Shown one piece after another: positions 16,434 through 19,103 of a DNA stretch of 64,000 nt. The notes under the pieces are model-generated. The model was not told where the DNA came from. It did not search any database and was given only the letters and a program-made list of their open reading frames with translations. Within the stretch, counting starts at the first letter, position 1, and each line of letters begins with the position of its first letter. A program made the translations under genes and the position numbers. Source of the DNA: Fervidobacterium pennivorans DSM 9078 (lineage in GTDB: Bacteria; Thermotogota; Thermotogae; Thermotogales; Fervidobacteriaceae); assembly GCF_000235405.2 (NCBI RefSeq), contig NC_017095.1, positions 1,513,501 through 1,577,500 of the forward strand, in the 5' to 3' direction.

Positions 16434-18359
16434 TTATGCTTTGTAGAATACCCGCTTTGGGTATTCTTCTTTTTTTCTTATGCTGTTAAACGAACTAACT
16501 GGCACCAAATAACCAACTATTCTCATGTATTCGTCTGATTTGTTTTTCCCACACGTTGGGCATTTGGAACCATAGAACGCATGCCCTTCTTCACATACGC
16601 TTATCTTTTGATTAAACGCGAAATAAACCACTCCCATCTTTGCAACCAAATTCACCATACGCCATGCTTCTTCTTCACTTCTGAACGGTGAGTCGATGTT
16701 TATATGCAATATAGCCCCACCTGAGACTTTTTTATCGAGTATTCCTGAATATTTTATCCTGTTGAGCATGTCTGTATCAGTTGTAAGAGGTAACCATTGG
16801 TTTGAGTAGAGAACATAGTCTGTATCGTAAATAAGTCTGTCTTTTCGTGCCAAAGTAACTGCTGCCTTTTCGGCTGGAACCTGTTCTATATTGAACGTAA
16901 ATCCATACTTTTCAAACGCTTTATCGTTGAGCTCTCTGATTTCGTCGAGCAACTGAATTGCGAACTCTTCCCCTTCTTTAGTGTATTTCACTCCATCTAT
17001 ATCGACTGTGGTTAAACCCATTATCTCCAAAGCTTCATACAATCCGTTTATACCAACCGTTCCGTACTGTCTGTTCAAATCCATCAAACCCAAATTGTAA
17101 AGTGGGAGAACACCTTGCTGAATTCTTTCCTGGATAATATTTCTTATCGTTGCAAGCACTTTTTGAACTAATATAACTTTCTCTTGAAGTTTTCGCATAA
17201 ACTCCTCTTTCGATTTGGTTTCCAATGCAATTCTTGGCAGGTTAATTGTAACCACCTTGAACGAACCTATGTTCAAATCAGAGCCACCAATAGAATTGAC
17301 CATTCCCGCTAATTTATCAGGTCCCATCTTGAACTTTAACTCCCTTGTCGAACTTGTTAGCCTACAGCACGAGGCAACTGCATCGATACTATCAGAGACG
17401 TACCAGTTCGTATCTTGCCATTTCATATTGACTTTGTTTATGAACCGTGCGCTATCCTCATCGACAAACTTTCCATCTTTGTAGAGCAAAGACGCTGTTA
17501 ATACAGGGAAGGTAAACATCTGCTTTTCCCTTTCTTTAGATATCCACAACCAGTATTCTTTTTGCAGGGAGATTATATCTTCCACATATTCCGTAATAGC
17601 CGAACCATCAGGGTATGTCTCACCTTCGAATATCGTTCTGATGTAATTCCTATCAAGGTATGTGAAGTTTGTATAAGGTGATTGGGTGCCTCTAATAGGT
17701 TGGTTAATGGAGTATGTGAATATCTGGAAGTGCTGGTGCAGATATTCCTGAGCCTTATCTTTTGGTATTACTCCGCTTTCTAAATCTTTTCTGTAAAAGT
17801 AAGCAAGCCAGACAAAGAAGTCAGGCAAACCAACCGCACCTGATTGCTGGTTGGAAGCAAACATGACAAACTGAATCACATGCTGGATGTATGAAGAAAG
17901 GTGCTTCGCAGGGACTGATTTTATACTGTCAATGAAGAACAATCCCTTTTCCACAATTGGTCTTAGTGAGTAAGCATAACAATATGGTTCGAATGCAGCA
18001 TGGTGAGCATCATGCAGGTATATGTCTCCATACATTTGGTATTTGAGGAATTTTTTTGCGTCCTCTTGCCCAAAGAGTGATTTCATACGTTCATAGATGT
18101 AGTAAATGGAATACAATTTTGACCATGGCTTCACAACCTCGTTGAAGTATGTGTACACATTCGTGCTCCTTACATTCGCGTTCGCATCTATTGTGGAATT
18201 CAAAATCCCATTATTGAAGAAATGTTCAGTAAACTTCACCACATCCAGTTGCCAGCTGAGACCTTCCAATTCCAAAAACTCTTCAGGCACATTTGAAATT
18301 TCATCAACAAAGTCATCTGAAAAGCTGAAAGCTTTTAGCATGTCTTTCAAAAGTTGCAT
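16434..18359 (-). CDS. nrdD: Anaerobic ribonucleoside-triphosphate reductase, catalytic subunit
   Basis: 641 residues, a class III glycyl-radical reductase making dNTPs without oxygen. The C-terminal zinc site CEEGHAFYGSKCPTCGK and the following RIVGYLVPV block match the family; the glycine in RIVGY is the expected radical site. Active-site region QQSGAVGLPDFF and NQPIRGTQSPYTNFT are also typical. The N-terminal ATP-cone regulatory domain of many NrdD proteins seems absent or short. Start ATG 18359 has GGGGGAAGAG upstream and overlaps the 3' end of nrdG by 13 bases, so they are translationally coupled. NrdR-like boxes precede the operon. Confidence 0.93.
   Translation of the reverse strand: MQLLKDMLKAFSFSDDFVDEISNVPEEFLELEGLSWQLDVVKFTEHFFNNGILNSTIDANANVRSTNVYTYFNEVVKPWSKLYSIYYIYERMKSLFGQEDAKKFLKYQMYGDIYLHDAHHAAFEPYCYAYSLRPIVEKGLFFIDSIKSVPAKHLSSYIQHVIQFVMFASNQQSGAVGLPDFFVWLAYFYRKDLESGVIPKDKAQEYLHQHFQIFTYSINQPIRGTQSPYTNFTYLDRNYIRTIFEGETYPDGSAITEYVEDIISLQKEYWLWISKEREKQMFTFPVLTASLLYKDGKFVDEDSARFINKVNMKWQDTNWYVSDSIDAVASCCRLTSSTRELKFKMGPDKLAGMVNSIGGSDLNIGSFKVVTINLPRIALETKSKEEFMRKLQEKVILVQKVLATIRNIIQERIQQGVLPLYNLGLMDLNRQYGTVGINGLYEALEIMGLTTVDIDGVKYTKEGEEFAIQLLDEIRELNDKAFEKYGFTFNIEQVPAEKAAVTLARKDRLIYDTDYVLYSNQWLPLTTDTDMLNRIKYSGILDKKVSGGAILHINIDSPFRSEEEAWRMVNLVAKMGVVYFAFNQKISVCEEGHAFYGSKCPTCGKNKSDEYMRIVGYLVPVSSFNSIRKKEEYPKRVFYKA
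16445..16477 (+). terminator. Terminator of mutS inside the nrdD 3' end
   Basis: AGAATACCC (16445-16453) and GGGTATTCT (16459-16467) form a 9-bp stem with loop GCTTT, followed by a T-rich run (TTCTTTTTTTC). It overlaps the last codons of nrdD on the other strand. Confidence 0.8.
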
Positions 18360-18955
18360 AACTCTTCCCCCTTCTTCTCTTGTTTGTTGATTTTCAAAGT
18401 CTCAAAAATTTGCTTAAGCTCCTCTTTGGTTAAGTAAAGTTGATTTGCTGAGGCAGGAAATCCGTCGCGATGATATTTTTGTAGATAACGTCCAAGAACA
18501 TACTCGTCAAAGTAGTCCAAAGGCACATCAAGTTCTAATAAATCTTTAGGAGTCCTCCAAGAGAAAATAAGCACAACTACTTTTTCTTGGAAAAATTCCT
18601 TGACAATTTTTGCAAGCATGTAGGCATACTTTCTGTTCCTCGGAGAAAGGGGCTCTCCACCAAGCAAAACGAGAGCAACTTTGTCATACACATTCAAAAG
18701 GGTATCAAGCTTAGCTACCACGTGCTTCACCAAATGAGAAAAATCAACAGCAAATTTTTCATCAAAGTCCCACGTCTCTGGATTGTGACATCCAAAACAC
18801 TTTGGATATGCGTCGCATCCTTGGAAGTAAACACTCACGGAAGGCAGGCTCGGATGGTCTCCTTGCATCATACGAACAACACGCAAAAGCGGTTTCCCTA
18901 ATACAGATGATTGCAAAGGTTCTAAAACAACACTCTCGGATTGCATAATCTCCAT
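18347..18955 (-). CDS. nrdG: NrdG-like radical SAM activase with CX5CX2C motif
   Basis: About 202 residues. It should install the glycyl radical on NrdD using S-adenosylmethionine and a 4Fe-4S cluster. The cluster motif is GCDAYPKCFGCHNPETWDF with cysteines near residues 47, 53 and 56, that is CX5CX2C rather than the usual CX3CX2C of NrdG. The codons are unambiguous in the sequence. VALVLLGGEPLSP fits the GGEP motif that binds SAM. Start: ATG 18955, six bases after GGGGG; an ATG at 18961 is too close to it. First gene of an nrdG-nrdD operon, the reverse of the more common nrdD-nrdG order. Confidence 0.88.
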   Translation of the reverse strand: MEIMQSESVVLEPLQSSVLGKPLLRVVRMMQGDHPSLPSVSVYFQGCDAYPKCFGCHNPETWDFDEKFAVDFSHLVKHVVAKLDTLLNVYDKVALVLLGGEPLSPRNRKYAYMLAKIVKEFFQEKVVVLIFSWRTPKDLLELDVPLDYFDEYVLGRYLQKYHRDGFPASANQLYLTKEELKQIFETLKINKQEKKGEELCNF

Positions 18956-19035
18956 ACACATCCCCCAAAGTCTAAGTTGGCGTTAGATAGAAGTAATAAA
19001 AAGCCGAAAGGAAGTCGATAAAACGAAGATAAAAT

Positions 19036-19080
19036 ACACTATGTTGTATTATTTTTACCACACCACACAATATATAGTAT
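19036..19080 (-). promoter_or_regulatory. Candidate NrdR boxes upstream of nrdG-nrdD
   Basis: ACACAATATATAGTAT at 19065-19080 agrees with the known palindromic NrdR consensus (ACACwATATaTwGTGT) at all but one position. A weaker copy, ACACTATGTTGTATTA, starts at 19036, 29 bases away. Paired NrdR boxes at about three helical turns are usual. They lie 80-125 bases before the nrdG start, next to AT-rich promoter-like DNA. Confidence 0.5.
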
Positions 19081-19103
19081 CATACCCCACCACTTGCTGT
19101 CAA

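Follow-up and report, generated by a model that had tools for sequence, protein, structure and literature searches.

How far may the cysteine motif of a radical SAM activase depart from its textbook form? The standard signature is CX3CX2C, and the putative activase (NrdG) of a class III ribonucleotide reductase (NrdD) in Fervidobacterium pennivorans DSM 9078 is without that spacing, having CX5CX2C. Such an activase turns on the anaerobic synthesis of DNA precursors. The longer motif could mark an error in the sequence, a changed chemistry, or an enzyme that is unusual in the length of one loop. Very probably the last is the case: the window's NrdG would be ordinary in function, its loop stretched by D-x-x-P-K, a state common to its Thermotogales relatives with this gene, within a set of activases that mostly serve NrdDh-type reductases and are labile in loop length. 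The one activase role considered here spans loops of three, four, and five residues. The gene lies in a stretch of 64,000 nucleotides, referred to here as the window.

The nrdG Gene and Its Partner Reductase

The nrdG ORF (204 amino acids) occupies 18347..18961 on the minus strand and overlaps its neighbor nrdD by 13 bp. Translation may begin at Met3 (18955) rather than at Met1, judging from a GGGGG run that touches the first ATG. The sequence-only reading that drew attention to this DNA called the gene nrdG, an identification borne out by that overlap and by matches to two protein families: TIGR02826 (RNR_activ_nrdG3), the best-scoring NCBIfam model at 96.2 bits (E = 1.6e-27; curated cut-off 151.7), and TIGR02491 at 46.5 bits (E = 3.6e-12; curated cut-off 126.1). 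Though under both family cut-offs, the ORF can be taken from its sequence to be a relative of NrdG. A match to Fer4_12 (48.1 bits) passes its cut-off of 22. With canonical NrdG (TIGR02491) the protein would share its role as a radical SAM activase, and it shares the CHN after Cys2-xx-Cys3.

The cluster motif, GCDAYPKCFGCHN, covers residues 48–60 (18782..18820, minus strand). Its cysteines are C49, C55, and C58, with C49 to C58 spanning 18788–18817, and the five residues between the first and second cysteines are DAYPK (18800..18814, minus strand). The departure from CX3CX2C was thus rightly described at the outset; the ends of the interval given for it, 18790–18835, are off by 8 and 15 bases.

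An AlphaFold model of NrdG has a mean pLDDT of 88, and of 86 over residues 51–60, which include the second and third cysteines. The best match among solved folds is pyruvate formate-lyase activase (3cb8; Z 11.7, rmsd 3.1, 136 residues aligned), with a Z score well over those of unrelated proteins, so far as a model can tell placing the protein in the partial-barrel fold of radical SAM enzymes. QueE also resembles the model (Z 9.2–9.7). Pyruvate formate-lyase activase is likewise a glycyl-radical activase, but it acts on another target enzyme and is only 20% identical over the aligned part. Its motif is CX3CX2C.

The partner, nrdD (16434..18359, minus strand; 641 amino acids), encodes a class III ribonucleotide reductase of the NrdDh1 type. 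The protein scores 844.8 bits on NF006127 and 724.8 on TIGR02827, above their cut-offs of 545 and 568.3, and matches the NrdD of Thermotoga maritima (4u3e) at 973.6 bits. It bears the marks of NrdDh1, all encoded on the minus strand: SCCR at residues 330–333 (17361..17372), a finger-loop tip NSIGG with Ile at residues 355–359 (17283..17297), the zinc site CEEGHAFYGSKCPTC, which is exactly CxxxHx6CxxC (16551..16595), and the glycyl-radical loop RIVGYL (16506..16523), in which the radical glycine would be residue 616. SCCR is a motif of NrdDh, the Ile tip is common to all NrdDh1, and the zinc motif of T. maritima NrdD is CxxxHx6CxxC as well (PMC4493059). The NSIGG tip is also present in the T. 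maritima-type NrdD sequence.

Upstream of nrdG, at 19064..19083 (no strand assigned), lies CACACAATATATAGTATCAT, which resembles the consensus of an NrdR box. NrdR itself is encoded in the genome (G000:C1:1505907-1506347; 202.9 bits), as is the class II reductase NrdJ (653.6 bits).

Conservation of the Motif in Thermotogales

A protein search of 101 genomes (the organism's own and its relatives) found matches in 26. All 25 NrdG-type genes, from 24 of the 101 genomes and counting a second copy in the organism's own, have CX5CX2C; the other matches (in G078, in G087, and a second one in G002) are weak, at 20–22 bits, and have CX3CX2C. The motif is therefore no oddity of one genome but common to all 24 related genomes with this NrdG, one of which has an NrdD like that of T. 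maritima. Twenty-one of the 25 genes entered an alignment, the check that had been proposed for Thermotogales, and the spacing proved conserved there: C49, C55, and C58 are invariant in 21/21, together with D50, P53, and K54 of the gap. Also invariant is GGEP at residues 101–104 (a GGE-type strand), while the remaining cysteines, C2 and C202, are outside the invariant set. The window's NrdG is 62% identical to that of locus L001, a Thermotogota record. The cut-off of TIGR02826 is passed by 6 of 103 genomes in the phylum.

At the level of DNA, 45 genomes from the order were searched with a degenerate pattern for C-x3-PKC-xx-CHN, which occurs in 23 of them (reversed control, 0), the same 23 that have a CX5 gene in the protein search. 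In the phylum to which the Syntrophaceticus genome belongs, none of 398 genomes has the pattern. A sequencing error, which the sequence-only reading had said would undo its claim, is excluded by the 25 related genes and by the 23 genomes with the DNA pattern. More broadly, the chance that CX5CX2C stems from a sequencing or frame error or is a fortuitous pattern is negligible, for it recurs in all 25 genes with differing codons. The other thing that would have weakened the claim, a motif shared by a known subgroup, is largely what was found: the motif is shared, though no paper was found that names it.

The organism has a second nrdG-nrdD pair (L082, G000:C1:742054-742545), whose NrdG also has CX5CX2C and is 51% identical to the first. 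It adjoins genes that resemble cysE and cysK by a reading of the DNA, and two sites like NrdR boxes lie upstream. Its NrdD groups, on a starred branch, with that of L092, a locus in a different family within the order, and not with those of the window's genus, which suggests that the pair was acquired horizontally. In a draft genome of the T. maritima-like genus (L105/L108, G021:C5:5244-5776), nrdG is split into two frames, by either an assembly error or a true lesion. A draft genome of the window's own genus has a second gene of the NrdG3 type (L117, G003:C232) on a small contig that is possibly contamination. It scores high on TIGR02826 (143.5 bits) and is CX3CX2C, where the window's NrdG is CX5, so the relatives matched by this family mix spacings.

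A Relative Reported to Work

Whether such a motif supports activity may be judged from T. maritima. Aligned with PDB 4u3e, the 497-residue NrdD fragment from locus L098 matches it residue for residue throughout the native part, and it is by the identity of this one fragment that genome G031 is equated with T. maritima (the NrdDs of L099 and L100 differ from 4u3e at a few positions). The adjacent NrdG reads GCDAKPKCYMCHN, that is, CX5CX2C with D-x-x-P-K, as in the window. The resemblance extends to the overlap of nrdG and nrdD, which measures 13 bp in the window and 35 bp in T. maritima (PMC4493059), and to a partner NrdD with SCCR, the Ile tip, and CxxxHx6CxxC. The two activases differ in that the window's is 43% identical to that of L098, has 204 amino acids compared to the 183 reported for T. 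maritima, and reaches 96 bits on TIGR02826, a family on which the genome of L098 exceeds 151.7. When 14 control genomes were searched with this family, ten matched, including T. maritima, and one passed the cut-off.

The T. maritima activase (tmNrdG) was reconstituted and formed a glycyl radical on tmNrdD, and leaving it out reduced activity to a negligible level (PMC4493059). It needed an MBP tag, owing to its poor solubility at pH 7.0, the pH required for reconstitution of the cluster; assays with formate as reductant failed, and T. maritima cell extract gave activity (PMC4493059). The part of that paper available contains no mention of the cysteine spacing of tmNrdG. Since the T. maritima-type NrdG has CX5 and tmNrdG made the glycyl radical, the longer motif is evidently a working one. 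The published activity likewise argues that CX3CX2C spacing is not essential for NrdG.

By the reading preferred here, C49, C55, and C58 would bind a [4Fe-4S] cluster, with SAM on the open iron, and the 5'-deoxyadenosyl radical would abstract a hydrogen from what is presumably Gly616 of the NrdD encoded by the overlapping gene. The gap between the first two cysteines, two residues over the usual, is built as D-x-x-P-K, and the proline and the basic residue beside the second cysteine probably form a fixed bulge that holds the geometry of the ligands. The function would then be orthodox and the chemistry probably unaltered. The sequence-only reading held that the longer motif alters the cluster loop, which is true of the loop's length. 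That it alters the chemistry of the cluster as well (its potential, the binding of SAM, or sensitivity to oxygen) strikes me as improbable. The gap does directly flank two cluster ligands, and the invariant Lys54 adjoins Cys55; against this, the glycyl radical of T. maritima has a g-value of 2.0056, reported to be comparable to those of other NrdDs (PMC4493059), a value that reports on NrdD and not on the cluster of NrdG.

Searches of open-access PMC gave no paper on NrdG with either CX5CX2C or CX3CX2C as terms, which argues weakly for novelty, and among the radical SAM papers they gave on CX5CX2C or CX4CX2C, no title concerned NrdG. PMC2795772 and PMC11226230 do not use the term CX3CX2C. CX5CX2C has been described as unique to HcgA (PMC10100467), a radical SAM enzyme of the FeGP cofactor that shares this motif with the window's NrdG but belongs to another family and catalyzes another reaction; the common length presumably reflects convergence. 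Among the long-loop activases is one of T. maritima type whose activity has been reported, and searches based on the standard motif would overlook such activases.

Loop Length Beyond Thermotogales

Viral contigs in IMG/VR were scanned with patterns that fixed the cysteines, a glycine before the first, CHN, and one tryptophan, and nothing else. The scan for CX5 found 37 stretches, of which 29 are NrdG-like and 25 distinct, and the scan for CX4 found 29, of which 22 are NrdG-like and 17 distinct. The corresponding scan for CX3 met at least 120 stretches, so its sequences are a sample. A motif confined to Thermotogales is ruled out by these CX5 and CX4 NrdGs. The two residues before the second cysteine are PH in 16, PK in seven, PY in one, and VK in one of the CX5 set, and PH in all 17 of the CX4 set. 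Of the 42 distinct long-loop sequences from viral contigs, 41 thus have a proline, which the scans did not require, two before the second cysteine.

Phages as a group do not have long loops: of 12 named phage and plasmid regions, six gave a readable NrdG (L166, L169, L171, L172, L173, and L177), CX3 in every case, and in the other six no NrdG motif was read. PMC4493059 assigns two Clostridium phages to NrdDh1, and neither name appears among the matches listed here. Few cellular NrdDh were found outside the window's phylum for comparison: in the phylum of G113 none of 118 genomes matches TIGR02827 above its cut-off, in that of G108 none of 299, and in that of G114 one of 299 (L382). The NrdG of L382 is CX3, and so are those of the two nearest loci read below the cut-off (L412 and L413); G169 has further copies outside this reading.

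One CX5 contig (L140/L188, IMGVR_UViG_3300002494_000025) carries nrdG, nrdD, and mutS in the same order as the window, with about 82% identity in DNA. In this region the contig, which is catalogued as viral, consists of bacterial flank. The genes upstream of its nrdG look phage-like by a reading of the DNA, and the border of a provirus possibly lies directly upstream of nrdG.

Loop Length and the Type of NrdD

Three NrdDs, that of the window and two of canonical type, served as queries, and the NrdD of each locus was called NrdDh or canonical by its better match. Among all loci with one readable NrdG (26 of 197 had none), those with a spacing of three adjoin 86 canonical NrdDs, two NrdDh, and 25 unread; those with four adjoin no canonical, 18 NrdDh, and four unread; and those with five adjoin five canonical, 27 NrdDh, and four unread. 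After merging at 70% identity (n = 133) the corresponding numbers are 73, 2, and 18 for three residues, 0, 14, and 2 for four, and 4, 17, and 3 for five. The merged viral-contig loci thus have spacings of four or five with NrdDh in 31 cases and with canonical NrdD in four, and a spacing of three with NrdDh in two and with canonical NrdD in 73. Fisher's test, with the 23 of 133 rows of unread NrdD excluded, gives p = 1.2e-20, a value that overstates the association insofar as the rows are related. The zinc site (46 of 183 loci gave none) follows the same division: 30 CHCC and 4 CCCC among long-loop viral rows, compared to 68 CCCC and 2 CHCC among rows with a spacing of three. Longer loops follow NrdDh at the level of clades.

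These figures bring to mind a loop co-adapted with NrdDh, facing its compact and differently oriented zinc and glycyl-radical domain and aiding docking or the opening of the radical loop. The division by spacing and that by zinc site both speak for the idea, as does the assumption in PMC4493059 that the difference in zinc domain reflects a different NrdG. I nonetheless find it rather doubtful. The rows behind the p-value are related, and there are exceptions in both directions. CX3 NrdGs lie beside NrdDh-like NrdDs in phages and in cells (L166, from Desulfovibrio phage ProddE, L171, L172, L319, L333, L382, L412, and L413), five of them with a CHCC-type NrdDh (L166, L319, L333, L412, and L413), and all six NrdGs read in the named phage and plasmid regions are CX3. 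Conversely, CX5 NrdGs lie beside canonical NrdDs in five rows (L145 and L186, on one contig, L180, L187, and L195). TIGR02491 is the best-scoring family for the NrdGs of L145, L180, L187, and L195, and TIGR02826 for those of L141–L143. Most viral members of the canonical family sampled are CX3CX2C, and in this they differ from the window's NrdG, those four having CX5. At the CX4 protein of L222 the boundary between the two families is blurred, since its scores are 62.3 on TIGR02491 and 59.0 on TIGR02826.

History of the Loop

A quick maximum-likelihood tree was built from 56 NrdDs, with spacing scored on 54 rows, on the assumption that NrdG and NrdD travel together as a pair; 15 of its 53 inner branches have support below 80. 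All 14 rows of Thermotogales type fall into a single starred clade (support 100) and are CX5, and the motif was probably present already in the ancestor of their NrdG-NrdD pair. Elsewhere CX3, CX4, and CX5 are interleaved, requiring at least eight changes of spacing on the best tree, and the starred (well-supported) branches alone force at least four changes per spacing state. The tree rejects the idea that CX5 arose only once (p-AU 1.7e-12 when the CX5 rows are kept together), and the CX5 of canonical NrdGs counters it as well.

The tree of NrdDh bears on the pairing with NrdD. On it, the type of zinc site (CHCC or CCCC) changes once and long versus short spacing five times, and none of four independent contrasts in spacing differs in zinc type. 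The association therefore reflects mostly common descent and is no proof of co-adaptation. The co-variation with NrdD that had been proposed as a check holds between clades (31 to 4 against 2 to 73) but not as independent co-variation within NrdDh.

There is about an even chance that loop length drifts almost neutrally, a proline before the second cysteine being the easiest way to bear one or two extra residues. The interleaving of spacings on the tree and the rejection of a single CX5 origin fit such drift, and so does the recurrence of proline, unasked, in nearly every long-loop sequence. Drift accounts less well for a spacing uniform across 24 related genomes with D50, P53, and K54 invariant, and for the scarcity of long loops beside canonical NrdD: four of 77, with the true share lower still, given at least 120 CX3 stretches. 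Tentatively, the loop may instead be an evolvable element, changed repeatedly among three, four, and five residues, in almost every case by way of a P-[H/K/Y]-C bulge (with one V-K-C exception) and mainly in activases of NrdDh, where it would tune docking or the cluster, Thermotogales being a cellular lineage in which the longest form is fixed. Either way, the window's NrdG, as an ordinary activase with a stretched loop, would fall within a set of activases of labile loop length (three, four, or five residues) that mostly serve NrdDh-type reductases. As far as the literature searches show, three points are new: the lability of loop length across NrdDh-type activases, the convergence of long forms on P-[H/K/Y]-C, and the occurrence of CX5 in canonical NrdGs as well. 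With the natural series of lengths the role of the loop can be tested directly, and loop length is a feature on the side of the activase to set beside the different zinc domain of NrdDh described in the T. maritima NrdD paper (PMC4493059).

Several NrdDs encoded on viral contigs (L196, L197, L213, L217, L231, and L235) are unusually long, at about 880–1300 amino acids, with extra internal stretches that are possibly inteins.
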